From Kutzneria sp. 744 (lineage in GTDB: Bacteria; Actinomycetota; Actinomycetes; Mycobacteriales; Pseudonocardiaceae): 47,299 bases of DNA. The stretch lies in NCBI RefSeq assembly GCF_000568255.1, contig NZ_KK037166.1, forward strand, positions 8,578,973-8,626,271, given 5' to 3'. The notes under the pieces are model-generated. The model was not told where the DNA came from, did no database searches, and saw only the letters and a program-made list of their open reading frames with translations. Made by a program: the position numbers and the translations under genes. Below are positions 968 through 23,393 of this stretch, one piece after another (position 1 is the first letter of the stretch; every line of letters begins with the position of its first letter).

Positions 968-2182
968 ATGGTTAGTGAAGTGACCGACTTCTACGGCCGG
1001 CGGTACCGGGTCGGGGAGAGTGATCGCGAGCTGCTGGGGCATTCCAGGAACTGGGTGCTGGCGGCGGCGTGCGTGGCGATGCTGGTCGCCGGGGCGGGGC
1101 AGTACGGGTTCGGCCTGATCGTGGGCGGCGAGTACTGGCTGCTGGCGATCTGGGTGGCCACGCAAGCGGTTGCGGTGTTTCCGCTGGCCTGGCTGAGGGA
1201 GCGGCTGCACGTGCGGCCGACGCTGGCGATGATCGCGGGCGCGGTGCTGACGGCGCTGGGCGATCTGTTCGCGGGAGCGTGGACGGCGGTGCTGGGCGGG
1301 CTGGGGGCGGCGATCGTCTACGGGGCCTGCTTCGGCGTGGTGGCGAAGTGGTTCCCGGAGCGGCGCACGTGCCTGGGCCTGGTGAGCGGGGCGTTCGCGG
1401 CGGGGTCGGTGCTGTTCGCGACGCCGTTGCCGATCATCGCCGTCGTGGTGATCACGGCCTGCGGCTTCGTGCTGCGCGAGCCGCCGCCGGACTGGTGGCC
1501 GGCGAAGCCGGACCCGCGGAAGTGGGCGCTGGACAAGACGCTGAACCTCAGCCTGAAGCACAACCGCCCGGCGATCCGCAGGTACACGCCGGGCCAGCTG
1601 CTCCGCTGCCCGACCTCGGCGGTCATGTACGTCCTGGTGGCCTGCGCGGCGGCGGCGTGGCTGTTCGACGTCGCATACATGGCGGCCTTCGTGGCGTCCA
1701 GCGGTTGGGGGTACGCCTTCGCGGCGGTCGCGGTCTGCGTGCTCACGCTGGCCAGCGGCGCGGCCCGGTGGGCGACGGGCTGGGCCGGCGAACGGTTCGG
1801 TGTCGGCCGGGTGGTCCGAGGCGCGCTGGCCCTGGGCGCCCTTGGTCAGCTGCTGCTCATCGTCGCCGGGCAACACCAGGCGGCCGTCCTCCTGGTGTTC
1901 GCGGCGCTAGTGGTCGGCACCACAGCGGGCTGCTGCTACGCCCTGCTGCCCGCCCTGGTCGAGGCCCATTTCGGCGACCAGGCCGGCCTGCTGAACTTCG
2001 GCCTGGTCTACAGCGCCAAGGCGGTCGGCGGCATCGTCGGCATCGGCCTGACGACCGCCATGGTCGCGACGTACGGCTACGCGGCCGGCTTCCTGCTCGC
2101 GGCGGGCCTGGGCGTCCTGGGCGCCCTCGCCGGCGGCATGCTGCGTCAACCCGGCGTCCCGCGGCTGCTGGTGCCGGCCTGA
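968..2182 (+). CDS. OxlT-like MFS transporter, short paralogue
   Basis: This is a 404-residue membrane protein of the oxalate/formate antiporter branch of the major facilitator superfamily. ATG 968 was chosen because GGTGGGTGAG precedes it and because its N-terminus ([11 protein letters not shown]) matches the start of the 460-residue paralogue at 15512. The frame is open upstream to 833. Shared landmarks with the paralogue are the REPPPDWWP loop, [10 protein letters not shown] before TM7 and NFGLVYSAK in TM11 (Lys about 351, in the position I would align with the essential Lys355 of Oxalobacter OxlT). Against the paralogue it lacks about 11 residues near TM2 and about 16 residues between TM5 and the central loop, so one helix may be incomplete. 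It is translationally coupled to fdhD. Substrate (oxalate, formate or another) is not fixed by the sequence. Confidence 0.8.
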
Positions 2183-3006
2183 TGGGCCGCGTCACCACGC
2201 GGCGGCGGGTCGTTCGCGTCGTGGACGGCCGGGTGAGCGCCCGGCCGGACACGCTCGCCGCCGAGGAACCACTGGAGATCCGGGTCGGCGGCCAGCCGCT
2301 GTCCGTCACGATGCGCACACCGGGCCACGATTTCGACCTGGCGGCCGGCTTTCTCGTCTCCGAGGGCGTGATCGGCCAGACCGACGAGCTCAACGCCATC
2401 CGGTACTGCGCCGGCGCGACGGTCGACAACGGCAACACCTACAACGTGCTGGACGTGAGTTTGGCCCCCGGGGTGCCGCCGCCGGATCCGTCGGTGGAGC
2501 GCAACTTCTACACCACCTCCTCGTGCGGGCTGTGCGGCAAGGCCAGCCTCGACGCCGTGCGGGCGACCAGCCGGTGGTCGGTCGAGTTCGACGAGCTCAA
2601 GGTCGACATCGACACCGTCACGACCATGCCGGACACCCTGCGCACGGCCCAGCTGGTGTTCGATCGCACGGGCGGCCTGCACGCGGCGGGACTGTTCACC
2701 CGGGACGGTCGGCTGCTGTGCCTGCGCGAGGACGTCGGCCGGCACAACGCCGTCGACAAGGTGATCGGCTGGGCGCTGCGGGACAACCGGCTGCCGTTGA
2801 GCGGAACGGTGCTCATGGTCAGCGGCCGAGCATCCTTCGAGTTGGTGCAGAAGGCCGTGATGGCCGGCATTCCGGTGCTGGCCGCGGTGTCGGCGCCGTC
2901 CTCGCTGGCGGTGGAGCTGGCCGCCGAGATGGGGCTGACGCTGATCGGGTTCCTGCGCGGCACGTCCATGAACGTCTACACCGGAAGCCAGCGGCTGGGT
3001 CTCTGA
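2182..3006 (+). CDS. fdhD: Formate dehydrogenase accessory sulfurtransferase FdhD
   Basis: This is a 274-residue FdhD. The family transfers sulfur from an IscS-type cysteine desulfurase to the bis-MGD cofactor, giving the sulfido ligand formate dehydrogenase needs. The sulfur-carrying loop SCGLCGKAS (CxxC) and the conserved [17 protein letters not shown] and [13 protein letters not shown] segments are all present. ATG 2182 shares its A with the TGA of the preceding transporter gene, so the two are translationally coupled. The client is presumably the formate dehydrogenase at 18903-23393. Linking an oxalate-type carrier and FdhD in one operon supports a formate-producing pathway. Confidence 0.95.
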
Positions 3007-10193: not shown

Positions 10194-11918
10194 ATGGTGG
10201 GAACAGAACCCGTGGTAGACAGCCAGACGGCGAACGGATCCGCCCCCGCGCCCCAGATGATCACCGGTGGCCATCTCGTCGCGAAGGCGCTCAAGGCCGA
10301 GGGCATCGACACGATATTCACCCTGTGCGGCGGGCACATCATCGATATCTACGACGGATGCGTCGACGAGGGCATCAAGGTCATCGACGTCCGCCACGAG
10401 CAGGTCGCCGCGCACGCCGCCGACGGGTACGCCCGCGTGACGGGCACGCCGGGCTGCGCAGTGGTCACCGCGGGCCCGGGCACGACGAACGCGGTCACCG
10501 GCGTGGCCAACGCCTTCCGCGCGGAGAGCCCGATGCTGCTCATCGGCGGCCAGGGAGCCCTGACGCAGCACAAGATGGGCTCACTGCAGGACTTGCCGCA
10601 CGTCGACATGATGAACCCGATCACCAAGTTCTCCGCCACGGTGCCGGACACGGCCCGGGCGGCGGACATGGTGTCGATGGCGTTCCGGGAGGCCCTCAAC
10701 GGCGCGCCCGGCCCGTCGTACCTGGAGATCCCGCGCGACGTGCTGGACGGCAAGGTGCCGGTGGAGAAGGCCCGCGTGCCGCAGGCCGGCCGCTACCGCG
10801 CCTCGACCCGGCAGGCCGGCGACCCCGAGGCGGTGGAGAAGCTCGCGGACCTGTTGGTGCACGCCAAAAAGCCGGCGATCCTGCTCGGCAGCCAGGTCTG
10901 GACGACGCGGGGCACCAACGCGGCCATCGACCTGGTGCGCAACCTCAACATCCCGGCCTTCATGAACGGCGCCGCCCGCGGCTCGCTGCCGCCCGGCGAC
11001 CCGCACCACCTCCAGCTGTCGCGCCGCTACGCCTTCGACAACGCCGACGTGATCGTCATCGTCGGCACCCCGTTCGACTTCCGGATGGGTTACGGGCGAA
11101 GGCTTTCCACCAAGGCGACCGTGGTGCAGATCGACCTGGACTACCGCACCGTCGGCAAGAACCGGGACATCGACCTCGGCATCGTCGGCGACGCCGGCCT
11201 GATCCTGGCCTCGGTCACCGCCGCCGCCTCCGGCCGGGTCGACAACGGCGCGACCGGCCGCAAGCCGTGGCTGGAGGAGCTGCACAAGGTCGAGGACCAG
11301 GCGCGGCAGAAGCGGTTGCCGCAGCTGCACTCCGACGCCAACCCGATCCACCCGTACCGGCTGATGCACGAGATCAACCAGTTCATCACCGAGGACTCCA
11401 TCTACGTCGGCGACGGCGGCGACATCGTCACCTTCTCCGGCCAGGTGCTGCAGCCCCGCTCGCCCGGCCACTGGATGGACCCGGGCCCGCTGGGCACGCT
11501 CGGCGTCGGCATCTCCTTCGTGATGGCGGCCAAGCTGGCCCGGCCCGACAAGGAGGTCGTCGCGCTGTTCGGCGACGGCGCGTTCTCCATGACCGGCTGG
11601 GACTTCGAGACGCTGGTCCGCTTCAACCTGCCGTTCGTGGGCATCGTCGGCAACAACTCGTCGATGAACCAGATCCGCTACGGCCAGGCCCAGAAGTACG
11701 GCCTGGCCAGGGAACGCGTCGGCAACACGCTGGGCGACGTGCGCTACAGCGAGTTCGCCAAGATGCTCGGCGGCTACGGCGAGGAGGTGCGCGACCCGGC
11801 CGACATCGGCCCGGCGCTGCTGCGCGCCCGCGAGTCCGGCCTGCCGTCGCTGATCAACGTCTGGGTCGACCCGGACGCGTACGCCCCCGGAACCATGAAC
11901 CAGACCATGTACAAGTGA
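10194..11918 (+). CDS. oxc: ThDP-dependent decarboxylase/lyase, probable oxalyl-CoA decarboxylase
   Basis: This 574-residue enzyme belongs to the acetolactate synthase/2-hydroxyacyl-CoA lyase/oxalyl-CoA decarboxylase family. The cofactor-activating Glu is in RHEQ (Glu69). The ThDP/Mg motif runs from GDG (460-462) to NN (487-488). ATG 10194 follows AGGAG. The position directly before frc indicates oxalyl-CoA to formyl-CoA + CO2. From memory, the N-terminal half ([15 protein letters not shown]) is closer to mycobacterial IlvG and 2-hydroxyacyl-CoA lyases than to Oxalobacter Oxc. The Oxc SSER-type active-site loop is replaced by [12 protein letters not shown]. It may be a non-orthologous decarboxylase or a lyase joining formyl-CoA to a carbonyl. 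Family high confidence, exact reaction moderate. Confidence 0.75.
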
Positions 11919-11932
11919 GTTCGGGAGTCGCT

Positions 11933-13162
11933 ATGGGCAAGGCGCTGGAGGGCGTGCGCGTCCTCGACATGACCCACGTGCAGTCCGGTCCGTCGTCCAC
12001 CCAGCTGCTGGCCTGGCTGGGCGCGGACGTGATCAAGCTGGAGACGCCGGGCCGCGGGGACATCACCCGCGGCCAGCTCCGGGACATCCCGGGCGAGGAC
12101 AGCCTCTACTTCACCATGTTGAACTCCAACAAGCGCAGCATCACGCTCAACATGAAGAGCGAGGACGGCGCCAGGATCTTCGGCCAGCTGGTGTCCGATG
12201 TGGACATCCTGGTGGAGAACTTCGGGCCGGGCGTGATCGACCGCTTCGGCTTCTCCTGGGAGAAGCTGGCCGAGCTCAACCCGCGGCTGATCTACGCCTC
12301 CATCAAGGGTTTCGGCCCCGGGCGCTACGCCGACTTCAAGGCCTACGAGGTGATCGCGCAGGCCATGGGCGGCTCGATGAGCACCACCGGCTTCGAGGAG
12401 GGCCCGCCCACCGCGACCGGCGCCCAGATCGGCGACTCCGGCACCGGCATCCACCTGGTGGCCGCGATCCTGGCCGCGCTGTACCAGCGCACCAACTCCG
12501 GCCGTGGGCAGCGGGTGCAGGTGGCCATGCAGGACGCGGTGCTCAACCTGTGCCGGGTCAAGCTGCGCGACCAGCAGCGCCTGGTCCACGGACCGTTGGG
12601 GGAGTACCCGAACGAGAGCTTCGGCGACGAGGTTCCCCGTTCCGGCAACGCTTCCGGCGGCGGGCAGCCGGGCTGGGCGGTGCGCTGCGCGCCCGGCGGC
12701 CCCAACGACTACATCTACGTGATCATCCAGCCGCCCGGCTGGCGGCCGATCACCGAGCTGATCGGCAAGCCGGAGCTGGCCGACGACCCGCAGTGGGCGA
12801 CGCCGGAGGCGCGACTGTCCAAGTTGGACAAGGTGTTCGCGATGGTCGAGGACTGGACCAGCAACCTCACCAAGTGGGACGTCATGGAGCAGCTCAACGC
12901 GGTCAACGTGCCGTGCGGGCCGATTCTGTCGACCAAGGAGCTCATCGAGGACGAGACGCTGGCCGAGCTGGGCTCCGTGGTCGAGGTGGCGCACCCGGGC
13001 CGCGGCACGTACAAGACGGTCGGCTGCCCGCTCAAGCTGTCGGACTCGCCGGTGGACATCACCCGCTCGCCGCTGCTGGGCGAGCACAACGCCGAGGTGC
13101 TCGGCGACCTGGGCTACGGACCCGACCAGCTGGAGCGGCTGCGCGCCGCCGGCGTGATCTGA
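11933..13162 (+). CDS. frc: Formyl-CoA:oxalate CoA-transferase
   Basis: This 409-residue class III CoA-transferase moves CoA from formyl-CoA to oxalate, giving oxalyl-CoA and formate. It matches Oxalobacter Frc through its length: [16 protein letters not shown] at the N-terminus, [14 protein letters not shown], the catalytic Asp in GDSGTG (Asp168, equivalent of Asp169), [18 protein letters not shown] and the glycine loop [11 protein letters not shown] that covers the aspartyl-CoA intermediate. This separates it from generic CaiB/BaiF proteins. The gene starts 14 nt after the decarboxylase gene behind GGGAG, so the two form an operon. Confidence 0.93.
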
Positions 13163-13172
13163 GGATGGGCGC

Positions 13173-13253
13173 ATGAGCGAGCTTGCGAGCGAATCATTCA
13201 CCACGGAACATCCGCGAACGCGGACACCGAGCGCCAGCGAGGTGCCGCAGTGA
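13173..13253 (+). CDS. 26-codon coupled micro-ORF, copy 1 of an interspersed element
   Basis: The ATG at 13173 opens a 26-residue frame that begins MSELASES and ends PSASEVPQ. Its TGA overlaps the GTG of the next gene (GTGA). A second frame of exactly the same length, beginning VTELAREP and ending PSASEVGL, sits at 22471-22551 in the same kind of junction. The ends are conserved in DNA (GAGCTTGCGAG and CCGAGCGCNAGCGAGGTG) while the middle differs. It is either a short mobile/REP-like element that keeps frame or a coupling peptide; no function is known to me. Confidence 0.4.
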   Translation: MSELASESFTTEHPRTRTPSASEVPQ

Positions 13254-15388
13254 CGAACTACGACCGCGAGGCGGTCCAGAAGGTGCTGGCGCAGGTCGCG
13301 GCGGACGGCCGCGACTCGCTGACCGCGCCCGAGGGCAAGATCGTCTGCGACGCGTACGGCATCGCCACGCCCGACGAGGGCCTGGCCACCGACTCCGAGC
13401 AGGCGGTGGAGCTGGCCGAGCGGATGGGCTTCCCGGTGGTGCTCAAGATCGTGTCGCCGGACATCCTGCACAAGACCGAGGCCGGCGGCGTGTTGGTCGG
13501 CATGTCCGACGCCGCCCAGGTGGCGCACGGATTCCGCACCATCACGGCCAATGCCAAGATCTACGACCCGAACGCCAGGATCCTCGGCATCCAGGTGCAG
13601 CAGATGCTGCCGGCCGGGCAGGAGGTCATCGTCGGCGCGACCACCGACCAGACCTTCGGCAAGATCGTGGCCTTCGGCCTCGGCGGTGTGCTGGTCGAGG
13701 TGCTCAAGGACGTCACCTTCCGGCTGGCGCCGACGGATCGCTCGCAGGCGATGTCCATGATCGACGGCATCGCCGCGGCCGAGATCCTGCGCGGCGTGCG
13801 CGGCGCGGAGCCGGCCGACCGGGAGGCCATCGCCGACCTGATCACCCGGGTTTCCGACCTGGTCACGGATTTTCCGCAGCTGTCCGAAGTGGACCTCAAC
13901 CCGGTGCTGGCCACGCCGACCGGCGCGACCGCGGTGGACGTGCGGGTGCTGGTCGACGCCGATGCGGCCGCCGAGCCGTTCCGGTTCTCCCAGCAGGAGA
14001 TCCTGGCCGCGATGAACCGGATCATGAAGCCGGCCGCGGTGGCGGTGATCGGGGCGTCGGCCGAGGACGGCAAGATCGGCAACTCGGTGATGAAGAACCT
14101 GGTCAACGGCGGCTACCGCGGGGAGATCTACCCGATCAACCCGAAGGCCACGGAGATCCTGGAGCGCAAGGCCTTCGCCAGCATCGGCGACGTCCCCGGC
14201 GACGTGGACGTGGCGGTGTTCGCCATCCCGGCCAAGTTCGTGCCGCAGGCCCTCAAAGAGGTCGGCGAGAAGGGGGTCGCCGGCGCGATCCTCATCCCGT
14301 CCGGCTTCGGCGAGACCGGCAACCACGAGCTGCAGGACGAGATCGTGAGGATCGCTCGTGAGCACGATGTGCGCATCCTCGGGCCGAACATCTACGGCTA
14401 CTACTACACGCCGGAGCACCTGTCGGCGACGTTCTGCACGCCGTACGACGTGCAGGGCGGGGTGGCGCTGTCCTCGCAGAGCGGCGGCATCGGCATGGCC
14501 ATCCTCGGCTTCAGCCGGTCGGCCCAGATGGGCGTGTCGGCGATCGTCGGCGTCGGCAACAAGGCCGACATCGACGAGGACGACCTGCTGACGTTCTTCG
14601 AGCACGACGACAACACCAACCTGATCGCCATGCACCTGGAGGACCTCAAGGACGGCCGGTCCTTCGCCGAGACGGCCAAGCGGGTCTCCAGGACCAAGCC
14701 GATCGTGGTGCTCAAGGCCGGCCGCACGGCGCAGGGCGCCAAGGCGGCCAGCTCCCACACGGGGGCGTTGGCCGGCAACGACAAGGTCTACGACGACATC
14801 CTGCGGCAGAGCGGCGTCATCCGGGCGCCGGGCCTGGACGACATGCTGGAGTACGCCCGCGGCGTGCCGCTGCTGCCGACCCCCAAGGGCGAGAACATCG
14901 TGATCATCACCGGCGCCGGCGGCTCGGGTGTGCTGCTGTCGGACGCCTGCGTGGACAACGGCCTCACGCTGATGTCCATTCCGGAGGATCTGGACAGGTC
15001 CTTCCGGGAGTACATCCCGCCGTTCGGCGCGGCCGGCAATCCCGTCGACATCACCGGCGGCGAACCGCCGTCGACCTATCGCAACACCATCGCGCTCGGC
15101 CTGGCCGACGAGCGGGTGCACGCGCTGATCCTGGGCTACTGGCACACCATCGTCACGCCGCCCATGGTCTTCGCCAGGCTCGTCGTCGACGTGGTCGAGC
15201 AGTACCGGGAACACGGCATCCACAAGCCGGTCGTGGCGTCGCTGTCGGGCGACGTCGAGGTGGAGGAAGCCGCCGAGTTCCTGTACCGCCACGGGATCGT
15301 GGCCTACCCGTACACCACGGAGAAGCCCGTGGCCGTGCTCGGCGCGAAGTACCGCTGGGCCCGAGAAGCAGGTCTTCTGGAGGGCTGA
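13250..15388 (+). CDS. Fused ADP-forming acyl-CoA synthetase (beta-alpha order)
   Basis: This 712-residue NDP-forming acyl-CoA synthetase has the ATP-grasp (beta-like) region first (about 1-240; VVLKIVSPDILHKTEAGGV and EVDLNPV). The CoA-binding and ligase (alpha-like) regions follow from about 255 (AVIGASAEDGKIGNSVMKNL; catalytic phosphohistidine His503 in SSHTGALAG). The family makes or uses acyl-CoA with ATP/ADP + Pi. In this operon it could activate oxalate to oxalyl-CoA to prime the Frc cycle. It could also run in reverse on formyl-CoA to save ATP. GTG 13250 overlaps the micro-ORF stop, so translation depends on that short frame. Substrate is inferred from context only. Confidence 0.85.
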   Translation: MTNYDREAVQKVLAQVAADGRDSLTAPEGKIVCDAYGIATPDEGLATDSEQAVELAERMGFPVVLKIVSPDILHKTEAGGVLVGMSDAAQVAHGFRTITANAKIYDPNARILGIQVQQMLPAGQEVIVGATTDQTFGKIVAFGLGGVLVEVLKDVTFRLAPTDRSQAMSMIDGIAAAEILRGVRGAEPADREAIADLITRVSDLVTDFPQLSEVDLNPVLATPTGATAVDVRVLVDADAAAEPFRFSQQEILAAMNRIMKPAAVAVIGASAEDGKIGNSVMKNLVNGGYRGEIYPINPKATEILERKAFASIGDVPGDVDVAVFAIPAKFVPQALKEVGEKGVAGAILIPSGFGETGNHELQDEIVRIAREHDVRILGPNIYGYYYTPEHLSATFCTPYDVQGGVALSSQSGGIGMAILGFSRSAQMGVSAIVGVGNKADIDEDDLLTFFEHDDNTNLIAMHLEDLKDGRSFAETAKRVSRTKPIVVLKAGRTAQGAKAASSHTGALAGNDKVYDDILRQSGVIRAPGLDDMLEYARGVPLLPTPKGENIVIITGAGGSGVLLSDACVDNGLTLMSIPEDLDRSFREYIPPFGAAGNPVDITGGEPPSTYRNTIALGLADERVHALILGYWHTIVTPPMVFARLVVDVVEQYREHGIHKPVVASLSGDVEVEEAAEFLYRHGIVAYPYTTEKPVAVLGAKYRWAREAGLLEG

Positions 15389-15511: not shown

Positions 15512-16894
15512 ATGACCACAAGTTCCACCAGTTACAGGGAGTTGACTGACGACAACGGCAGGGTCTACCGGATCGGCGAGAGTCCCCGGGACCTCATGGG
15601 GCGATCCCGATCCTGGATGGTCTGGCTGCCGTGGATCGCGATGATCGCGGTGAGCGTCTACGAGTACGGCTGGGGCGCCGTGGTCAAGACGTTGCAGCAG
15701 AAGAACGGTTGGACGCTGACCGAGGTGTTCTGGTTGGCGACGGTGTGGGCGGTCTTCCAGGCCGCCATCGCGTTCCCCGCGGGACGCTTACGTGAGCGCA
15801 ACGTGGTCTCGGCCCGGTCGGCAATGTTGTTGGGCGCGGCATTGTCGGGCGTCGGCTACTTCACCATCGCGTTCAGTGGCAACCTCGGGCTGGCGTTTCT
15901 CGGTTACTCGGTCTGCGGCGGCATCGGCGCGGGCCTCGTGTACGCCACGTGCATCAACATGGTCGGCAAGTGGTACCCGGAGAAGCGCGGTGCGCGGACC
16001 GGATTCGTCAACGGCGGCTTCGCCTACGGTGCGGTGCCGTTCATCTACATCTTCAGTGCGGTGCTCACGCCGGCCAGCACGACCCTGATCCTGTCCCTGA
16101 TCGGCGTGTACATGCTGATCGTGGTCGTGTTCTGCGGGCTGATGTTCCGGGATCCGCCGAAGAACTGGTGGCCCGAGCACATCGACCCGAAGGAATGGTC
16201 GCGCAACACCAAGACGAACAAGAGCCTGGCCAAGAACCCGCCCGCGGTGCGGCAGTTCACGCCGGGGGAGGCGATCCGCAGCGGCATGCTGCCGCTGATG
16301 TGGGTCTCGCTGGTGATCATCGGCGGGGTGTCGCTGTTCGGGATCAACTTCCAGGTCCAGTTCGCCACGGCCAGCCACTTCGGGCCGTTCGTGGCGGCGT
16401 CGTCGGCCGGCGTGCTGTCCATCGTGAACGGAACCGGCCGGGCCCTCGTCGGCTGGCTGTCCGACCACATCGGACGCCGGCAGACGCTCACCCTGGTGCT
16501 GGTGATCGCCGGCATCGCGCAGTTCGGCCTGGTCTACTCGGGCAACACGGAGAACATCGCCCTGTTCATGGTGTTCGCGTTCCTGGTCGGCTTCGGCGGC
16601 GGCGCTTTCTACCCGCTGTTCGCCGCCCTGGTGCCGGACTACTTCGGTGAGAACTACAACGCCACCAACTACGGCCTGGTGTACAGCGCCAAGCTCGTGG
16701 GCGGTGTCGGCGGCGGCGGTCTCGGCGCCATGGTGGTCTCGAGCTGGGGTTACACCGGCGCGTACGTGCTGGCCGGCTGCATCGCGCTCGTCGCGGCCGG
16801 TCTGACGTTGTTCCTGCACCAGCCGGGACATCCGAAGTCCAAGACCACGGTGTCGGCCGCGGCCTCGGGCTTCGGCGCCCCAACCACCGCCTAG
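15512..16894 (+). CDS. Oxalate/formate antiporter-type MFS transporter
   Basis: This 460-residue, 12-helix MFS protein is of the OxlT branch, expected to exchange oxalate for formate or to import oxalate at the plasma membrane. Landmarks: the cytoplasmic N-terminus with RVYRIGES, RDPPKNWWP in the central loop, GTGRALVGWLSDHIGRR (its Arg may correspond to OxlT Arg272) and NYGLVYSAK in TM11 (Lys394, probably equivalent to OxlT Lys355). The C-terminal tail is hydrophilic. A 123-bp gap separates it from the acyl-CoA synthetase gene, with no clear operator motif, so read-through from the decarboxylase promoter is likely. It is the better oxalate-carrier candidate of the two paralogues. Confidence 0.85.
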   Translation: MTTSSTSYRELTDDNGRVYRIGESPRDLMGRSRSWMVWLPWIAMIAVSVYEYGWGAVVKTLQQKNGWTLTEVFWLATVWAVFQAAIAFPAGRLRERNVVSARSAMLLGAALSGVGYFTIAFSGNLGLAFLGYSVCGGIGAGLVYATCINMVGKWYPEKRGARTGFVNGGFAYGAVPFIYIFSAVLTPASTTLILSLIGVYMLIVVVFCGLMFRDPPKNWWPEHIDPKEWSRNTKTNKSLAKNPPAVRQFTPGEAIRSGMLPLMWVSLVIIGGVSLFGINFQVQFATASHFGPFVAASSAGVLSIVNGTGRALVGWLSDHIGRRQTLTLVLVIAGIAQFGLVYSGNTENIALFMVFAFLVGFGGGAFYPLFAALVPDYFGENYNATNYGLVYSAKLVGGVGGGGLGAMVVSSWGYTGAYVLAGCIALVAAGLTLFLHQPGHPKSKTTVSAAASGFGAPTTA

Positions 16895-16903
16895 CGGCCC
16901 GTT

Positions 16904-16925
16904 CCCGATCAGCTGTTCGATCGGG
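16904..16925. terminator. Hairpin between convergent transporter and gntR genes
   Basis: CCCGATC (16904-16910) and GATCGGG (16919-16925) form a perfect 7-bp stem with an 8-nt loop. It contains the gntR stop codon and lies 9 nt after the transporter stop, so it can serve both directions. Confidence 0.55.
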
Positions 16926-17655
16926 TCTGGGCTTGACGCTCCTCGTGGTAGGCCAGCCGGGTTCGTTCCGTGTGGACGGTCATGATCCGGCTGGCCTGCT
17001 CCGCGTCGCCGGCGGCGATGGCTTGGATCAGCTGCTCGTGCTCGCCCCAGGCGTCTTCTCCCCGTGGGCGGGCGATGGGCGTGTAGTACCAGCGGACCCT
17101 GCGGTCGACCAGACCGATCAGCTCGGCCAGCACCGCGTTGCCCGACAGGTTCGTGATGAACGCGTGCAGCGAGGCGTTCGCGGTGACCAGGCGGTCCACG
17201 TCGTCCGCCGCCAGCGCGTCCACACCTTCGCGCTGGAGCTCCCAGAGCTGCTCGACGTCCTGTTCGCCGGCGTGCTCGGCGGCCAACCGCGCGGAGTGCG
17301 TCTCCAGCACGCTGCGCACGCTGAGCAGCTGGTCGGCCTCCTGTTCGGTCGGCGTGTGCACGAAGGCGCCCTGGGCAGGTCGCAGATCCACCCAGCCTTC
17401 GGTCTGAAGTCGTTGCAGCGCCTCGCGAACGGGCTGGCGGCTGACCCCCAGGTACTCCGCGAGCTCGATCTCGACGAGGTGCTGTCCGGGTTGGAGGGTG
17501 CGGTTGACGATCAGTTCGATGAGGGCCTCGTAGACGGCCTGGCGCAGCGGGGCGGGGCGCTCCACCTTGCGGCCGGCCGCTTCGCCGAGCGTGCCGCGGG
17601 TCGCCCGGCGTCGGTTGACCGCTCCGCCGGGGAACGGTGTCGCGGGCTCGCTCAC
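16909..17655 (-). CDS. GntR-family (FadR/FCD) regulator, probable master regulator of the oxalate island
   Basis: This 248-residue protein has a winged HTH at about residues 40-105 (LAEYLGVSRQPVREALQRLQ) and an all-helical FCD ligand domain with the expected metal-binding His residues (SLHAFI, WGEHEQLI, MTVHTERT). FCD regulators usually bind a carboxylate through the metal and release DNA on binding it, which fits oxalate, formate or glyoxylate. It is divergent from the PanE-like gene. Island-motif copies lie in its own promoter region (17704-17717, weak) and near the neighbour (17840-17856), so it is probably autoregulated. A typical FCD operator is a short TGTATNCA-like dyad, as found here. 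Confidence 0.9.
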   Translation of the reverse strand: MSEPATPFPGGAVNRRRATRGTLGEAAGRKVERPAPLRQAVYEALIELIVNRTLQPGQHLVEIELAEYLGVSRQPVREALQRLQTEGWVDLRPAQGAFVHTPTEQEADQLLSVRSVLETHSARLAAEHAGEQDVEQLWELQREGVDALAADDVDRLVTANASLHAFITNLSGNAVLAELIGLVDRRVRWYYTPIARPRGEDAWGEHEQLIQAIAAGDAEQASRIMTVHTERTRLAYHEERQAQTRSNS

Positions 17656-17878: not shown

Positions 17879-18862
17879 ATGAAAGTCGCTGTTCTCGGCG
17901 CCGGCGCCATCGGCGCCTATGTGGGGGCGGCCCTGCACAGGGCCGGTGTCGACGTTCATCTGGTCGCGCGCGGCGCGCACCTCGCGGCGTTGCGTCGCGA
18001 CGGGGTGCGGGTGCTCAGCCCGCGCGGCGACTTCACCGCCAACCCGCCGTCCACCGACGATCCCGCCGAGGTCGGCGAGGCCGACTTCGTCTTCCTGGGC
18101 CTCAAAGCCAACTCGTACGCCTCGTGCGGCAAGCTGCTGGCGCCGCTGCTGGGCCCGGACACCGCCATTGTGGCCGCGCAGAACGGCATCCCGTGGTGGT
18201 ACTTCCACGGCCTGACCGGACATCCGCTGGAGGGGCGGCGGATCGAGGCCGTCGACCCCGGCGGTGCGGTCAGCGAGGTGCTCGACGTGCGCCGGGCCAT
18301 CGGCTGCGTCGTCTACTGCTCCACGGAGATCGAGGAGCCGGGCGTGATCCGGCACCTGGAGGGCACCCGCTTCTCCATCGGCGAGCCCGACGGCTCGATC
18401 TCGCAGCGCTGCCAGGACCTGTCGGCCGCGATGATCGCCGGCGGGCTCAAGAGCCCGGTCGAGCCGCGGCTGCGGGACGACATCTGGATCAAGCTCATGG
18501 GCAACGTCGCCTTCAATCCGCTCAGTGCCCTGACCGGCGCGACCATGGCGGAGATCTGCGCGCACGACGACACCAGGGCGGTCGTCGCGGCGATGATGGC
18601 CGAGACCGTGGCCATCGCCCGCGCGGCCGGTTCGGAGCCGTCGGTGTCCATCGAGAAGCGCATCGACGGGGCCCGGCGGGTCGGGCACCACAAGACCTCG
18701 ATGCTGCAGGACCTCGAGGCGGGCAAGGCGTTGGAGACCGACGCCATCATCGGCGCCGTCGTGGAGCTGGCCGACCTCACCGGGGTCCCCGCGCCCACCC
18801 TGCGCAACGTCTACGCGGCGGTGGACCTGCTTGCCCTGAATCGTGCTAGGCGCATATCGTAG
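17879..18862 (+). CDS. Ketopantoate reductase-family enzyme, candidate oxalyl-CoA reductase
   Basis: This 327-residue ApbA/PanE-type NAD(P)H oxidoreductase has the dinucleotide-binding GAGAIGAYVG at residues 7-16, the family Lys in GLKANSY and a C-terminal helical domain with KLMGNVAFNPLSALTGA. GAGGTGAG precedes the ATG. In Methylobacterium extorquens AM1 a PanE-like protein (PanE2) is the oxalyl-CoA reductase that makes glyoxylate for growth on oxalate. Its place here between gntR and formate dehydrogenase, behind an island operator, suggests the same role. A true 2-dehydropantoate 2-reductase for pantothenate synthesis is the alternative; no other pan genes are nearby. Confidence 0.75.
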   Translation: MKVAVLGAGAIGAYVGAALHRAGVDVHLVARGAHLAALRRDGVRVLSPRGDFTANPPSTDDPAEVGEADFVFLGLKANSYASCGKLLAPLLGPDTAIVAAQNGIPWWYFHGLTGHPLEGRRIEAVDPGGAVSEVLDVRRAIGCVVYCSTEIEEPGVIRHLEGTRFSIGEPDGSISQRCQDLSAAMIAGGLKSPVEPRLRDDIWIKLMGNVAFNPLSALTGATMAEICAHDDTRAVVAAMMAETVAIARAAGSEPSVSIEKRIDGARRVGHHKTSMLQDLEAGKALETDAIIGAVVELADLTGVPAPTLRNVYAAVDLLALNRARRIS

Positions 18863-18902: not shown

Positions 18903-20819
18903 ATGGGCCGGAGGAAGCGGGAACCCTACGTCCGACTCACCCAGCCGCTGGTCCGCGAGGCGGGCATCTTGCGGCCGGCGAGCTGGGACGAGGCCCTGGA
19001 CCGGGCCGCGGAGGGCTTTCGGCGCAATATCGAGGCCGGCGGTCCCGACGCCTTCGGCATGTTCTCGTGCGCGCGGGCCACCAACGAGATGAACTACGTG
19101 GCGCAGAAGTTCACCCGCGCGGTCATCGGCACCAACAACGTCGACTCCTGCAACCGGACCTGCCACGCCCCCAGCGTCGCGGGCCTGGCCAAGGTGTTCG
19201 ACAGCGGCGGCGGCACCTCCTCGTACCAGGAGATCGAGGACGCCGACCTGATCGTGCTGTGGGGATCCAACGCGCGCGAGGCGCACCCGATCTTCTTCCA
19301 GCACGTGCTCAAGGCCGTGAACAAGGGCGCGAAGCTCTACGTCGTCGACCCGCGGCTGACCAGCACGGCCAAGTGGGCGCACAAGTGGCTGCGGCTCAAC
19401 GTGGGCACGGACATCCCGCTGGCCAACGCCATCGCCCGCGAGATCATCCACTCCGGACTGGCCAACCGCTCGTTCATCGAGCGCGGCACCGAGGGCTTCG
19501 AGGAGTTCGCGGCCTCGGTCGAGGAGTGGACGCTGCCGGTGGCGGAGCTGGAGACCGGGGTGCCGGCCGAGCTGATCCGGGAGCTGGCGCACGCCTACGC
19601 CCGGGCCGACCGGGCCCAGATGTCGTGGACGCTGGGCATCACCGAGCACCACAACGGCACCGACAACGTGCTGTCGCTGATCAACCTGTCGCTGCTGGCC
19701 GGGCAGGTCGGCCGCTACGGGGCCGGGCTCAACCCGTTGCGCGGGCAGAACAACGTGCAGGGCGGCGGGGACATGGGCGCGATCCCGGACCGGCTGCCCG
19801 GCTTCCAGGACGTGGAGGACCCGGCCGTGCGGCGGGCCTTCGACGCGGTGTGGGGCTCGTCGATCCAACCCCGCAAGGGCTGGAACCTCACGCAGATGCT
19901 GGAGGCGATGGAACGCGGCGACATGACCACCGTGTACATCATCGGCGAGAATCCCGTGCAGTCCGAGGCGGACTGCGAGCACACGATCAAACGTCTGTCC
20001 AATCTGGACCATGTGGTGGTGCAGGACATCTTCCTCACCAAGACCGCGCAGCTGGCCCATGTCGTGCTGCCGGCGTCGGCCGCGTGGTGCGAGACGGACG
20101 GCACCTTCACCAACAGCGAGCGCCGGGTGCAGCGGGTGCGCAAGGCGGTCAACGCACCCGACGGCGCGAGGGACGACATCGAACTGCTCTGCGAGCTGGC
20201 GCGGCGCCTGGGTCACGACTGGCACTACGACGGCGCGGAGCAGGTGTGGGACGAGATGCGGGCGCTTTCCCCCATGCACCGGGGAATGAGCTACGCGCGG
20301 CTGGCCGACCTCGGGGGCATTCAGTGGCCCTGCCCGGACGAGGACAGCCTCGAACCGTCGTTCCTGCACGCCCGGTTGTGGGAGACCGATCCCGTGAAGC
20401 GGGGTCGCCCGGCGCCGTTCTCGGTGCTGCGGCACAGCCCGCCGGTGGACGAGCTGAGCACGGAGTTCCCGCTCCGGCTGACCACCGGGCGGCGGCTGGA
20501 CTCCTACAACACGGGCGTGCAGTCGGGCGGCTTCGAGTCCCCGATGCGTCGCGGCGAGACCCTGGACCTGTGCCCGCAGGACGCTCTGGACCTCGGCGTC
20601 GTGGCGGACGAGATGGTGCAGGTCTCGTCGCGGCGCGGGGCCATCGTGGCCCCGGTGCGGATCGACGAGGGGCTGCGGCCCGGGCTGGCCTTCATGACCT
20701 TCCACTTCCCGGACGAGGTCGACGTCAACGTGATCACCATCGAGGCCACCGATCCGGTCGCGGGCACGGCCGAGTACAAGGCGGCGGCCATCCGCGTCGA
20801 CAAGTTGGTGAATCTCTGA
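18903..20819 (+). CDS. fdhA: Formate dehydrogenase catalytic subunit, C-terminal (bis-MGD) part
   Basis: This 638-residue molybdopterin oxidoreductase oxidises formate to CO2. The metal-ligating Cys and its partner His are in RTCHAPSVAGL (Cys87-His88), where Sec enzymes carry U. The conserved Arg region is RGQNNVQGGGDMG, and the C-terminal cofactor-capping domain has TTGRRLDSYNTG. It begins directly at RLTQPLVREAG, a segment that in whole enzymes follows the N-terminal [4Fe-4S] domain. That domain (CxxCxxxC...C) is missing here and is instead the C-terminus of the gene at 22548-23393. ATG 18903 has GGGAGG upstream. It overlaps the next gene by 1 nt. Mo rather than W is inferred from nearby moeA and fdhD. 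Confidence 0.9.
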   Translation: MGRRKREPYVRLTQPLVREAGILRPASWDEALDRAAEGFRRNIEAGGPDAFGMFSCARATNEMNYVAQKFTRAVIGTNNVDSCNRTCHAPSVAGLAKVFDSGGGTSSYQEIEDADLIVLWGSNAREAHPIFFQHVLKAVNKGAKLYVVDPRLTSTAKWAHKWLRLNVGTDIPLANAIAREIIHSGLANRSFIERGTEGFEEFAASVEEWTLPVAELETGVPAELIRELAHAYARADRAQMSWTLGITEHHNGTDNVLSLINLSLLAGQVGRYGAGLNPLRGQNNVQGGGDMGAIPDRLPGFQDVEDPAVRRAFDAVWGSSIQPRKGWNLTQMLEAMERGDMTTVYIIGENPVQSEADCEHTIKRLSNLDHVVVQDIFLTKTAQLAHVVLPASAAWCETDGTFTNSERRVQRVRKAVNAPDGARDDIELLCELARRLGHDWHYDGAEQVWDEMRALSPMHRGMSYARLADLGGIQWPCPDEDSLEPSFLHARLWETDPVKRGRPAPFSVLRHSPPVDELSTEFPLRLTTGRRLDSYNTGVQSGGFESPMRRGETLDLCPQDALDLGVVADEMVQVSSRRGAIVAPVRIDEGLRPGLAFMTFHFPDEVDVNVITIEATDPVAGTAEYKAAAIRVDKLVNL

Positions 20820-22474
20820 TGGACCTGCGCTTCCTGGAGGCCTCTCCGTCCAAAGTGGAGAAGAACGCCATCGACGTGGCGTTGGTGGGCACCGATTGCG
20901 GCCGTGATCAGCTGCTGCCGGCGCTGCACGCGGCCAACGACGCCGTGGGGTGGATCAGCGAAGGCGCGTTGAACCACATCTGCCGTCGGCTGTCCGTGCC
21001 GCCGGCGGAGGCGTACGGCGTGGCCACCTTCTACTCCTTGTTCTCCATGCAGGAGCGGCCCCGCAAGGTCGTGCACGTCTGCGTGGACCTGGCCTGCAAG
21101 GTCAACGGCGCCGAGGCGCTGGTGGCCGCGCAGACCGATTTCGTGGTTCGCAGCCCATGCCTGGGGGTCTGCGAACGCGCGCCGGCGGCGCTGGCCGTCG
21201 AGGCCGGCGGGGATGCGTCCTATCTGATGCCCGAGCTTCCGTTGCCGCAGCTGGGGGATTCCTCCCTGCGGCTGCTGCGGCGGGTCGGCACGGTGGATCC
21301 CCTGAGCCTGGACGACTATCGCGCCGCCGGCGGGTATGCGGCGCTGCGCAACGCTTTCCTGCTCGGGCCGCAGGGCGTGATCCGCGAGGTCACCGACGCC
21401 AAGCTGATGGGCCGTGGCGGGGCGGCGTTCCCCACTGGCCGCAAGTGGGCCGCGACGGCCGGGCAGCCCGGGCGCCCGCACTACCTGGTGTGCAACGCCG
21501 ACGAGAGCGAGCCGGGGACGTTCAAGGACCGGGTGCTCATGGAGGGCGACCCGTTCGCGGTGATCGAGGCGATGACCGTCGCCGCGTACGCCACCGGATG
21601 CACCCGTGGCTACCTGTACATCCGTGGCGAGTACCCGAGGGCGTTCGCGGCCCTGACCAACGCCATCTCCGTCGCCCACGAGCGCGGTTTCCTGGGCTCG
21701 AACATCATGGGGCAGCCCGGGTTCGAGTTCGACGTCGAGATCCGGCGCGGCGCCGGGGCGTACATCTGCGGCGAGGAGACCGCGATCTTCAACTCCATCG
21801 AGGGCTTCCGCGGCGAGCCTCGCAGCAAGCCGCCGTTCCCCGTGGAGAAGGGCCTGTTCGGCAAGCCGACCGTGGTCAACAACGTGGAGACGCTGGCCAA
21901 CGTGCTGCTCATCCTGACCGAGGGATGCCAGGCGTTCCACCAGGTCGGCACCCCGCAGTCCACCGGCTCCAAGCTGTTCTGCGTCTCCGGCACTGTGCCC
22001 AAGCCCGGCGTGTACGAGGTGCCGTTCGGCACGACGCTGCGGGAGTTGCTGGAGCTGGCCGGCGGCGTCGAGGACCTGCGGGCGGTGCTGCTCGGCGGCG
22101 CGGCCGGCGGGTTCTTGCGTGCGGACGAGATCGACCTCCCGCTGACCATGGAGGACGCCCGCGCCGCCGGCACCACCCTCGGTTCCGGCGTCGTGCTCGT
22201 TCTCGACGGCACCGTCGACGTCGGCGGATTCCTGTTGCGCATAGCCGAGTTCTTCCGGGACGAGTCGTGCGGGCAGTGCGTGCCGTGCCGGATCGGCACC
22301 GTGCGCCAGGAAGAGGCCCTGCACCGCATCGTCCAGCGCAAGGGCGATGCCCAGGACTTGTTGCTGCTGCGGGACGTCGGCCAGGTCATGCGGGACTCGT
22401 CCATCTGCGGCCTGGGTCAGACCGCCTGGAACGCCATCGAATCCGCCATCGACCGACTCGGGGTGCAACTGTGA
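20819..22474 (+). CDS. Fused NuoE-NuoF (FdsG-FdsB) diaphorase subunit of formate dehydrogenase
   Basis: This 551-residue fusion has residues 1-150 NuoE/FdsG-like with the [2Fe-2S] ligands CVDLAC and CLGVC. Residues about 160-551 are NuoF/FdsB-like: the NADH site GRGGAAFPTGRKW, the FMN region GAGAYICGEETA and [4Fe-4S] ligands in ESCGQCVPC plus a distal Cys in SSICGLG. It passes electrons from the molybdenum subunit to NAD+. Such fusions are known in some NAD-linked formate dehydrogenases and hydrogenases. ATG 20819 overlaps the fdhA stop. The 3' end overlaps the GTG of the micro-ORF. The presence of this subunit makes the enzyme soluble and NAD-reducing rather than quinone-linked. Confidence 0.92.
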   Translation: MDLRFLEASPSKVEKNAIDVALVGTDCGRDQLLPALHAANDAVGWISEGALNHICRRLSVPPAEAYGVATFYSLFSMQERPRKVVHVCVDLACKVNGAEALVAAQTDFVVRSPCLGVCERAPAALAVEAGGDASYLMPELPLPQLGDSSLRLLRRVGTVDPLSLDDYRAAGGYAALRNAFLLGPQGVIREVTDAKLMGRGGAAFPTGRKWAATAGQPGRPHYLVCNADESEPGTFKDRVLMEGDPFAVIEAMTVAAYATGCTRGYLYIRGEYPRAFAALTNAISVAHERGFLGSNIMGQPGFEFDVEIRRGAGAYICGEETAIFNSIEGFRGEPRSKPPFPVEKGLFGKPTVVNNVETLANVLLILTEGCQAFHQVGTPQSTGSKLFCVSGTVPKPGVYEVPFGTTLRELLELAGGVEDLRAVLLGGAAGGFLRADEIDLPLTMEDARAAGTTLGSGVVLVLDGTVDVGGFLLRIAEFFRDESCGQCVPCRIGTVRQEEALHRIVQRKGDAQDLLLLRDVGQVMRDSSICGLGQTAWNAIESAIDRLGVQL

Positions 22475-22551
22475 CCGAGCTTGCGAGGGAACCAATGTGC
22501 ACAGTGACCTTGGTCGCAGACCCGCCGAGCGCTAGCGAGGTGGGACTGTGA
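22471..22551 (+). CDS. 26-codon coupled micro-ORF, copy 2 of an interspersed element
   Basis: GTG 22471 overlaps the upstream stop and the TGA at 22549 overlaps the next GTG, so ribosomes could run gene to micro-ORF to gene by two GTGA steps. The product begins VTELAREP and ends PSASEVGL, the same length and termini as the frame at 13173-13253. The DNA arms CCGAGCTTGCGAGG and CCGAGCGCTAGCGAGGT also resemble each other. The element lies exactly at the boundary before the displaced Fe-S part of formate dehydrogenase. Confidence 0.4.
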   Translation: MTELAREPMCTVTLVADPPSASEVGL

Positions 22552-23393
22552 CGATCGTCGACATCGGACTGCCGCGCCGGCTGGTGGAGTTCACTTTGGA
22601 CGGTGAGCAGGTCACCGTGCCCGAGGGCGCCACGATCCTCAGTGCCTGCAAGGACATGCCGACCCTGTGCTACGGGGACACGCTGGAGCCGGCCAACGCG
22701 TGCCGGGTGTGCATGGTCGAGGTCGAGGGGTCTCGCACTCTGGTGCCGTCCTGTTCCCGCAAGGTGGAGCCGGGCATGGTCGTCAACACGGACACCGAGC
22801 GCACGCGGCACAGCCGTCGCCTGGTGCTCGAACTCCTGGGCTCGGCCACCGATCTGTCCACCACGCCTCAGGTCGCCGACTGGATGGCCGACGTCGGGGC
22901 GGATCCCGCGCGCTTCGGTCCCGACGCCGCCACCGTCGCCCAGCCGGCCAAGGTCGACAATGTCCTGTACGTCAGGGACTACTCGAAGTGCATCATGTGC
23001 TACAAGTGCGTCGACGCCTGCGGCGACCAGTGGCAGAACACCTTCGCCATCGCGGTGGCCGGCCGCGGCTTCGACGCCCACATCTCCACCGAGTTCTCCG
23101 CCCCGCTGCCCGACAGCGCCTGCGTCTACTGCGGCAACTGCATCGAGGTCTGCCCCACCGGCGCCCTCAGCTTCCGCCGCGAGTACGACAAACGCGCCGA
23201 GGGCACCTGGGACGAGTCGGCCCAGTCGGCCACCACCACGGTCTGCACCTTCTGCGGTGTCGGCTGCAACCTCACGCTTCACGTGCAGGACAACGAGATC
23301 GTCAAGGTCACCTCGCCGCACGAGAGCTCGGTGACCCACGGCAACCTCTGCATCAAGGGGCGCTTCGGCTGGCAGCACGTGCAGAACCCCTAG
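22548..23393 (+). CDS. Formate dehydrogenase Fe-S subunit: HoxU/NuoG-N region plus displaced catalytic-subunit [4Fe-4S] domain
   Basis: This 281-residue protein has, in order, a [2Fe-2S] domain (residues about 34-66; CKDMPTLC, CRVC), a NuoG-like linker with RTRHSRR, two ferredoxin [4Fe-4S] motifs (CIMCYKCVDAC and CVYCGNCIEVCP) and, from about 227 to the end, a molybdopterin-oxidoreductase [4Fe-4S] domain (CTFCGVGC ... GNLCIKGRFGW). The last domain normally starts the bis-MGD catalytic region and continues without a break into RLTxPL. Here the chain stops after FGWQHVQNP and the continuation is the gene at 18903. Together they make 919 residues, close to single-chain FdsA/FdhA. The subunit links Mo-centre electrons to the NuoEF fusion. 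Confidence 0.9.
   Translation: MTIVDIGLPRRLVEFTLDGEQVTVPEGATILSACKDMPTLCYGDTLEPANACRVCMVEVEGSRTLVPSCSRKVEPGMVVNTDTERTRHSRRLVLELLGSATDLSTTPQVADWMADVGADPARFGPDAATVAQPAKVDNVLYVRDYSKCIMCYKCVDACGDQWQNTFAIAVAGRGFDAHISTEFSAPLPDSACVYCGNCIEVCPTGALSFRREYDKRAEGTWDESAQSATTTVCTFCGVGCNLTLHVQDNEIVKVTSPHESSVTHGNLCIKGRFGWQHVQNP

Follow-up and report, generated by a model that had tools for sequence, protein, structure and literature searches.

The window, a 47,299-nucleotide stretch of the genome of Kutzneria sp. 744, encodes three neighbouring chains (CAT, EF and FES; Table 1) that we read, with a probability of roughly 85%, as a cytoplasmic NAD+-linked three-chain formate dehydrogenase of probably chimeric origin. 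As judged from the sequences, its likely function is NAD-linked formate oxidation in which the first electron step takes place between two polypeptides. It also seems rather probable, at a lower level of confidence, that this enzyme belongs to a formate dehydrogenase clade that departs from the one-subunit rule seen in the Mo/W-bisPGD superfamily: the diaphorase-side chain would bear both the proximal cluster and its neighbouring lysine, the clade would have a single chimeric origin from an FdhF-type enzyme and a HoxEFU-like diaphorase, and Mo insertion would either precede docking or await a subunit in trans.

Domain content of the three chains

The sequence-only reading held that the catalytic gene lacks its N-terminal [4Fe-4S] domain, that this domain instead forms the C-terminus of the downstream Fe-S gene and that a NuoE-NuoF fusion lies between the two. 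All of this stands: the coordinates of CAT are confirmed and it has no Molybdop_Fe4S4 match, the domain is found at the end of FES, and EF shows NuoE- and NuoF-type domains. The two halves indeed total 919 amino acids (638 + 281). Their order is inverted, with the C-terminal part first, compared with the single-chain formate dehydrogenases seen, in which the catalytic part begins with the Fe4S4 domain. The domain content likewise agrees with the claim that the proximal-cluster ligands and the Mo centre are on different polypeptides, and the seam falls at the border of the Fe4S4 and MGD domains.

Table 1. Features of the window (start positions marked approximate may shift).
Feature	Position	Strand	Remarks
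fdhD, formate dehydrogenase sulfurtransferase	2170..3006	+	NF001943 over cut-off
TPP enzyme, kin of acetolactate synthase, 2-hydroxyacyl-CoA lyase and oxalyl-CoA decarboxylase	10254..11918	+	start approximate; best among matches listed is under its cut-off
Formyl-CoA transferase (frc)	11945..13162	+	TIGR03253 over cut-off; start approximate
NDP-forming acyl-CoA synthetase-like protein	13250..15388	+	matches under cut-offs; start approximate
MFS transporter, relative of oxalate/formate antiporters	15512..16894	+	TIGR00890 199 bits, under its cut-off
GntR/FCD regulator	16909..17655	-	
2-Dehydropantoate reductase-like protein	17879..18862	+	NF005089 over cut-off
CAT, bis-MGD catalytic chain, Cys type, without Fe4S4 domain	18903..20819	+	638 aa
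Cys87 codon of CAT, metal-ligand position	19161..19163	+	invariant column; TGC in window
EF, NuoE-NuoF fusion, FMN/NAD diaphorase	20819..22474	+	551 aa; PF01257, PF01512, SLBB, PF10589
Dispersed repeat copy (unit ~77 bp) holding micro-ORF	22475..22547	+	genome repeat search
FES, Fe-S chain: [2Fe-2S], two [4Fe-4S], C-terminal proximal-cluster Fe4S4 domain	22548..23393	+	281 aa; Fer2_4, Fer4_7, Molybdop_Fe4S4
Fe4S4 domain, FES residues 228-280	23229..23387	+	PF04879; TIGR01591 positions 1-49
FES Lys270 codon, C-x-K-G motif	23355..23357	+	invariant (26 FES rows); aligned with FdsA Lys

A domain profile search places PF00384 at residues 11-434 of CAT and PF01568 at 524-628. Together with these domains, Cys87, His88 and Arg280, which we take to be the active-site Cys/Sec position, its histidine and the conserved arginine, do not vary across 36 aligned CAT rows, 32 of them taken from split loci and with TGA read as Cys, as expected of a bis-MGD active site. 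The ligand in the window is a cysteine, with no in-frame TGA. CAT covers positions 53-672 of the Fdh-alpha model TIGR01591 and lacks the first 52, 49 of which are matched by FES; similarly, CAT matches residues 308-931 and FES residues 14-302 of Rhodobacter capsulatus FdsA (PDB entry 6tg9, chain A). These ranges are complementary, so that CAT and FES together match one family model and one FdsA chain. CAT by itself scores 653.5 bits against the curated cut-off of 666.25, just under the threshold for the single-chain equivalog, and the family may therefore escape annotation. The predicted structure of CAT (pLDDT 86.5) aligns to residues 343-981 of MeFDH1 and superposes on that portion of MeFDH1, FdsA and FDH-H which follows their Fe4S4 domain. 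By homology, the ends of the CAT and FES chains would be expected to meet.

No Fe4S4 domain is hidden ahead of CAT: the frame opens only at 18840, which allows about 20 extra residues at most, and no cluster motif is present there. An alternative cluster within CAT, which the sequence-only reading had named as part of what would count against it, is not seen either: Cys83 and Cys87 are the only invariant cysteines in the 36 rows, so that ligands for a substitute cluster are missing.

FES has 16 invariant cysteines (26 rows), and its Fer2_4 and Fer4_7 matches, corresponding to a [2Fe-2S] and ferredoxin-type clusters, are those of a HoxU/NuoG-type Fe-S subunit. The NuoE/NuoF diaphorase is encoded beside CAT, and the NuoG-like Fe-S, Fe4S4 and MGD parts are not joined in one alpha chain since the Fe4S4 domain is on FES. 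Lys270 aligns with the FdsA lysine of the C-x-K-G motif, located between the proximal cluster and the Mo centre; a role for this lysine is known from Lys44 of Escherichia coli FDH-H, according to the part of PMC12176258 available to us. The His-Cys3 [4Fe-4S] region was looked for, and PF10588 is absent from the domain matches of the window and no cysteine is found there in five split rows. The motif is also missing from several single-chain rows of the same alignment. The structure prediction for FES is poor (pLDDT 61.7), and with this weak model the top entries of a fold comparison are mostly complex I subunits with an r.m.s.d. over 4, to which we give no weight.

The micro-ORF at 22471-22551 was rightly described as repeat-like: it belongs to a dispersed repeat for which a genome search gives 52 matches at E<=1, this copy among them. 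This rules it out as an enzyme subunit such as FdsD. In the related loci L022 and L023, EF and FES overlap directly.

In the proposed enzyme, formate would be oxidised at the bis-MGD Mo or W centre of CAT with its cysteine ligand, and electrons would pass from one protein to the other, reaching first the proximal cluster of FES and then, along FES, EF, where NAD+ would be reduced. Docking of FES would be needed before the Mo pocket is complete. CAT-FES assembly, this electron path and NAD+ as acceptor are putative, as is formate as the substrate, which is suggested by the family and the neighbouring genes.

Conservation of the split

The question of whether other genomes share the split can be answered: it is conserved, at the Fe4S4/MGD domain border as judged by sequence, in the same order in Actinomycetota and beyond. 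CAT-EF-FES with a domain-bearing FES is found in 122 loci (98 of 118 classed, plus 4 of 4 and 20 of 20), which are not all independent and are no species count, since the same genomes may recur (the coordinates in G056 and G963 are identical). The main set holds 136 loci, 18 of which remain unclassed because the best CAT and FES matches are not on one strand; 99 of the 118 classed loci are CAT-EF-FES, and exclusion of L199, where the Fe4S4 domain is on CAT, leaves the 98, among them three with CAT cut by the contig end (L132, L169 and L185). Apart from Actinomycetota, split loci occur in metagenome-assembled genomes (MAGs) of eight other phylum-level labels, and MAGs labelled Bacillota (L154 and L165) have the split form. 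Genomes of the same genus show identical order and seam with a CAT identity of 92-97%, and the sampled split members form one clade. In two genomes CAT is 13-14 kb from EF-FES on the opposite strand, and it is unlinked yet kept in G089 and G056. The CAT of G089 is of the Sec type. Some loci look degraded or irregular: L175 and L195 resemble remnants, the CAT of L180 and the EF of L140 are each in two frames, and the CAT of L189 has two stops. A run of unknown bases in L103 makes its stop counts meaningless. In the titles and abstract openings searched, no description of this split was found.

The metal-ligand codon in split relatives is TGA at 82 and Cys at 36 of the 118 sites in the loci searched. 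SelB scores over its cut-off in all 17 Sec-type genomes and in four of 14 Cys-type genomes; none does so in the genome of the window. The mean folding energy is -20.0 kcal/mol at Sec sites versus -22.8 kcal/mol at Cys sites, so that Sec sites are not marked by it. A difference is seen only in the hairpin loop: GGUCU counts 46 at the 82 Sec sites and is outside the eight commonest loops at the 36 Cys sites.

Ancestry and competing explanations

In the CAT tree the split clade is sister to FdhF-type enzymes that carry their own Fe4S4 domain (support 100/100), whereas the FES-body tree (100/96) and the EF tree (100/99) both join it to the same Chloroflexota diaphorases, which have a short FES. 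A constraint that groups the CATs of split loci with those of the Chloroflexota three-gene loci is rejected (p-AU 6e-7), in a test whose groups were named after earlier trees had been seen. For the Fe4S4 domain, at 51 columns, neither side is rejected as its source: p-AU is 0.456 when it is grouped with the FdhF-type family (f32) and 0.109 when it is grouped with six rows from Chloroflexota three-gene loci. The differing sister groups favour a chimera over an FdsA that was cut and permuted. As read from these trees, an FdhF-type catalytic subunit was probably combined with a diaphorase in which the Fe-S subunit has a proximal-cluster domain, so that the catalytic chain would no longer have its own.

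The idea of the sequence-only reading that a single FdsA/FdhA gene was cut and permuted is thus not borne out, and we consider it unlikely. It supposes that a single-chain alpha gene of the FdsA/MeFDH1 type, ordered EF-FES-CAT, was severed where the Fe4S4 and MGD domains adjoin and that a rotation, for instance through tandem duplication and loss, then gave CAT-EF-FES; such an enzyme would work just as a chimeric one. Most unsplit relatives seen are indeed linear, EF-FES-Fe4S4-CAT in one or two genes, and the present order is a rotation of this with an exact seam. However, the sister of CAT, a stand-alone FdhF-type enzyme, is not that of EF/FES. In L199, moreover, the genes run CAT-EF-FES although CAT still has its Fe4S4 domain, and in L029 EF comes last, so that gene order moves without any cut. 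Far less probable still is that CAT and FES-EF are separate enzymes, CAT with a different acceptor and FES-EF with a different partner, whose proximity is incidental. Four loci with EF-FES but no adjoining CAT (L126, L152, L155 and L170), with CAT searched for and not found in the L170 MAG, do count against a single enzyme. Yet CAT is present elsewhere in the genomes of the other three, and among 396 genomes of the phylum FES occurs in 42, CAT in 40 and both in 38, against 4.2 expected (thresholds E<=1e-60 for FES and E<=1e-240 for CAT). Moreover, CAT has no cluster ligands of its own, and a proximal-cluster domain on FES would presumably be useless without a Mo chain. Single-chain enzymes are the textbook form, and one might suspect faulty sequencing or assembly, or a single gene that broke recently in this strain. 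Nothing else was found in favour of this, and its chance is negligible: the halves are separated by a different gene, and order and seam are shared by same-genus genomes and distant bacteria, a conservation that rules out a break or an assembly error.

Significance and comparison with known systems

A divided core that is conserved in this way is of interest for the assembly of metal enzymes of this kind. In nitrate reductase A, where both are in one chain, the proximal cluster is required before Mo cofactor insertion (PMC5123574 and PMC10609526); an order of FS0 before Mo is reported for NarG and DmsA. If the reading of a clade outside the one-subunit rule is true, the Mo cofactor is inserted either before the cluster domain docks, contrary to NarG and DmsA, or only once a subunit arrives in trans. 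As cluster and Mo centre would be on separate chains, the loading order is directly testable with chains made, loaded and mixed separately. The enzyme would also be a modular formate dehydrogenase, with a catalytic chain exchangeable without the first relay, of use in CO2-reduction work.

The closest described system is FDH3 of Actinomycetospora chiangmaiensis, with three cytoplasmic chains (FdhA3, FdhB3 and FdhC3 of 640, 614 and 316 amino acids), all detected in the proteome (PMC7176365). These lengths are exactly those of L273, a member of the family of the window with an in-frame TGA, and FDH3 almost certainly belongs to the split family, an identity established by length rather than sequence. 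FDH3 has Sec where the window has Cys. The portion of PMC7176365 available to us passes over the position of the Fe4S4 domain without comment and gives NAD+ dependence as assigned, not measured; A. chiangmaiensis has two further Sec-type formate dehydrogenases, so that its selenium effect is not specific to FDH3. In Sulfobacillus, a Sec catalytic chain adjoins NuoEFG homologues and may be a member of the split family; a split is unmentioned in the part of PMC4378227 consulted. MeFDH1 of Methylorubrum extorquens (PDB entries 8j83 and 7vw6) has a single alpha chain in which the Fe4S4 domain adjoins the MGD part, and appears to lack the His-Cys3 region, going by the cluster count in the section of a review available to us. 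R. capsulatus FdsA is one chain, matched by FES and then CAT; it has the His-Cys3 cluster region in the alignment and, according to the same review, separate FdsB, FdsG and FdsD subunits. The FdhF-type sister of split CAT (L302-L309 and L311) retains its own Fe4S4 domain, and EF or FES matches were looked for within the fetched stretches of these loci and none were found. Formylmethanofuran dehydrogenase is a bis-MGD enzyme on two chains, FwdB and FwdD, as are CAT and FES; there it is the pterin-binding part that is divided, and FwdB keeps the cluster.

One alpha subunit on two chains

The sequence-only reading had placed the bis-MGD catalytic chain (CAT), the NuoE–NuoF fusion (EF) and the Fe–S chain (FES) at the positions listed in the table, with the Fe4S4 domain absent from CAT and present at the C-terminus of FES. 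The positions are borne out in the window sequence, and the location of the domain agrees with the domain matches and with the ranges covered in TIGR01591 and FdsA. CAT covers model positions 53–672 of TIGR01591 and FES positions 1–49, and in FdsA of Rhodobacter capsulatus residues 308–931 match CAT and residues 14–302 match FES. As these matches are complementary, the two chains together are, judged from sequence, one ordinary alpha subunit with just a few residues unmatched at the seam, the Fe4S4/MGD domain border.

Features of the split formate dehydrogenase locus (window positions)
Feature	Position	Length (aa)	Placement	Domains and matches
TPP enzyme			upstream, same strand	kin to 2-hydroxyacyl-CoA lyase and oxalyl-CoA decarboxylase; below cut-offs
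Formyl-CoA transferase			upstream, same strand	above its cut-off
NDP-forming acyl-CoA synthetase-like protein			upstream, same strand	below cut-offs
MFS transporter, oxalate/formate type			upstream, same strand	below its cut-off
FdhD	2170–3006
GntR regulator and PanE-like reductase			between upstream genes and CAT
CAT	18903–20819	638		molybdopterin and dinucleotide-binding domains only
EF	20819–22474		between CAT and FES	NuoE–NuoF fusion
FES	22548–23393	281		Fer2_4, Fer4_7, Molybdop_Fe4S4 (228–280) at extreme end

Oxalate or a 2-hydroxyacyl-CoA may be converted to formyl-CoA and then to formate, which the split enzyme would oxidise to yield NADH. A dispersed repeat of about 77 bp at positions 22471–22551, often tandem and with 52 matches at E ≤ 1 in the same genome, itself included, encodes a 26-codon ORF of which the TGA stop overlaps the following GTG. 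GTGAC or its complement is found at both ends of nine of the ten copies examined, so that insertion at a GTGA stop/start overlap would preserve the frames of both neighbours.

Conservation of the split and its unlinked halves

The search for FES covered the genome of the window, 40 relatives and larger genome sets. It is found at E ≤ 1e-60 in 73/297 genomes of the window's family and 42/396 of the phylum, and at E ≤ 1e-44 in 68/251 genomes from the phylum to which an Anaerolineales MAG belongs, where split and unsplit types are mixed. The best 80 loci from a scan of named genomes include Streptosporangium, Nonomuraea, Streptomyces, Amycolatopsis, Pseudonocardia and others; the order CAT–EF–FES also occurs among them in MAGs labelled Thermoleophilia, Acidimicrobiia, Chloroflexota, Bacillota, Acidobacteria or Terriglobia, Gemmatimonadetes, Planctomycetota, Chthonomonas, Hyphomicrobiales and delta proteobacterium, labels that are not proof of the host. 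CAT and FES share a strand in 118 of 136 loci analysed together, and these 118 were classed (99 CAT–EF–FES, 16 single chain, three other). In one of the 99 (L199) CAT itself bears the Fe4S4 domain, so 98 are split. With 4/4 further Chloroflexota loci of high FES identity and 20/20 further loci of the window's family, the split order totals 122 loci, not all independent, which answers positively the earlier question of whether it is conserved across genomes. The split is real, old and widespread.

In 46 split loci FES stops after a KGRFG motif, its tail reaching about 35 residues at most (L187 has one of 74), and the CAT alignment begins at R-L/I-T in the 42 of these loci that hold CAT. The tails of L095, L107 and L112 show a TTPID-VL---AR pattern with slight likeness to the post-seam stretch of single-chain enzymes, which may be a remnant or chance. 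EF of a near relative (L021, genome G005) is spread over two frames that overlap, one for NuoE and one for NuoF, compared with one fused frame in the window; this may be a frameshift or two genes.

Among the 396 phylum genomes, FES occurs in 42, CAT (E ≤ 1e-240) in 40 and both in 38, against 4.2 expected if shared descent is ignored. Three of the four FES-only matches lie near contig ends and the fourth (G616) is of the single-chain type; the two CAT-only genomes are 67% and 89% complete. A Sec-type CAT, with TGA at the metal-ligand position, lies about 13–14 kb from EF–FES on the opposite strand in G089 (L126) and G056 (L155; G963, the genome of L155, has the coordinates of G056, and the two are probably one genome), and in the L152 MAG CAT is on a different contig. 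The halves are thus unlinked yet both retained, which argues that CAT and EF–FES function as separate proteins. No CAT was found in the genome of the L170 MAG. In Streptomyces minutiscleroticus (L175) and S. blattellae (L195) EF is reduced or missing beside FES, and the only CATs in their genomes are distant (36–37%); their EF/FES are probable remnants.

The codon at the metal-ligand position (Cys87 in the window) was found in 118 of 139 loci searched, as TGA in 82 and Cys in 36. SelB is above its cut-off in 17/17 Sec-type and 4/14 Cys-type genomes (G089 typed by its unlinked CAT), and not in the genome of the window. A GGUCU hairpin loop after the TGA was counted 46 times; folding energy alone did not separate the 82 TGA from the 36 Cys sites.

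Origin of the two halves

The split CATs form one clade (27 rows, 100/100), as do the split FES bodies (100/99). The sister of CAT in the tree is a set of FdhF-type enzymes of f32, a family of the same phylum, which have their own Fe4S4 domain, and its nearest unsplit kin in the genomes searched are nine stand-alone Sec loci of this type and domain content (L302–L309 and L311). No EF or FES match occurs at the f32 loci inside the stretches fetched. The split clade joins Chloroflexota loci in the trees of the FES body (100/96, with three single-chain rows inside) and of EF (100/99, the placing of split L243 being unresolved). In six such loci (L244–L249) EF, a short FES and CAT each have a gene of their own; the Fe4S4 domain lies on CAT there and is absent from FES. 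A tree constrained to group the split CATs with six CATs from Chloroflexota three-gene loci is worse by 207 log units (p-AU 6e-7), for groups named after earlier trees were seen. Since CAT has its sister in f32 and the FES body and EF have theirs in Chloroflexota, the split enzyme looks like a chimera. The sequence-only reading had a single gene cut and permuted; this is a possible history, but it is no longer the simplest, as CAT and EF/FES fall with different sister groups. The Fe4S4 domain tree (51 columns) does not decide between an f32 and a Chloroflexota origin.

Active site and comparison with known enzymes

The predicted model of CAT (pLDDT 86.5) aligns from residue 6–10 onward to MeFDH1 343–981, FdsA 301–937 and FDH-H 56–691, which in all three follow an Fe4S4 domain of their own. 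The predicted model of FES is poor; by homology, the ends of CAT and FES would meet. Only Cys83 and Cys87 are invariant cysteines across 36 CAT rows. FES has 16 in 26 rows: four for a [2Fe–2S], eight for two [4Fe–4S] and four for the proximal cluster. The His–Cys3 cluster of FdsA and NuoG is missing in the split form, and likewise in several single-chain forms. The remaining clusters of split FES equal the inventory reported for the MeFDH1 alpha subunit.

Lys270 of FES, invariant in the same 26 rows, is the counterpart of the lysine of the C-x-K-G motif in an alignment with FdsA. We take this lysine to be Lys44 of FDH-H, so that the active site would be constructed from two chains, CAT and FES. 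In E. coli FDH-H, Lys44 sits between the cluster and Mo, and among the replacements tested Arg alone kept activity, at 7.1% (PMC12176258). The chemistry is ordinary, whereas an active site divided over two chains is not; in the literature searched, the enzyme was not found described as a split.

FDH3 of Actinomycetospora chiangmaiensis is reported to have chains of 640, 614 and 316 amino acids, all detected (0.012–0.022%) and 2.2- to 3.1-fold more abundant with 2-hydroxyisobutyrate than with acetone. The strain needed selenium to remove formate, but it also has two other Sec-FDHs (PMC7176365). L273, a locus of the window's family with an in-frame TGA, encodes chains of 640, 614 and 316 amino acids when the start codons nearest the alignment are taken, and all three lengths are identical to those reported for FDH3. 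The split enzyme is very probably expressed in a relative.
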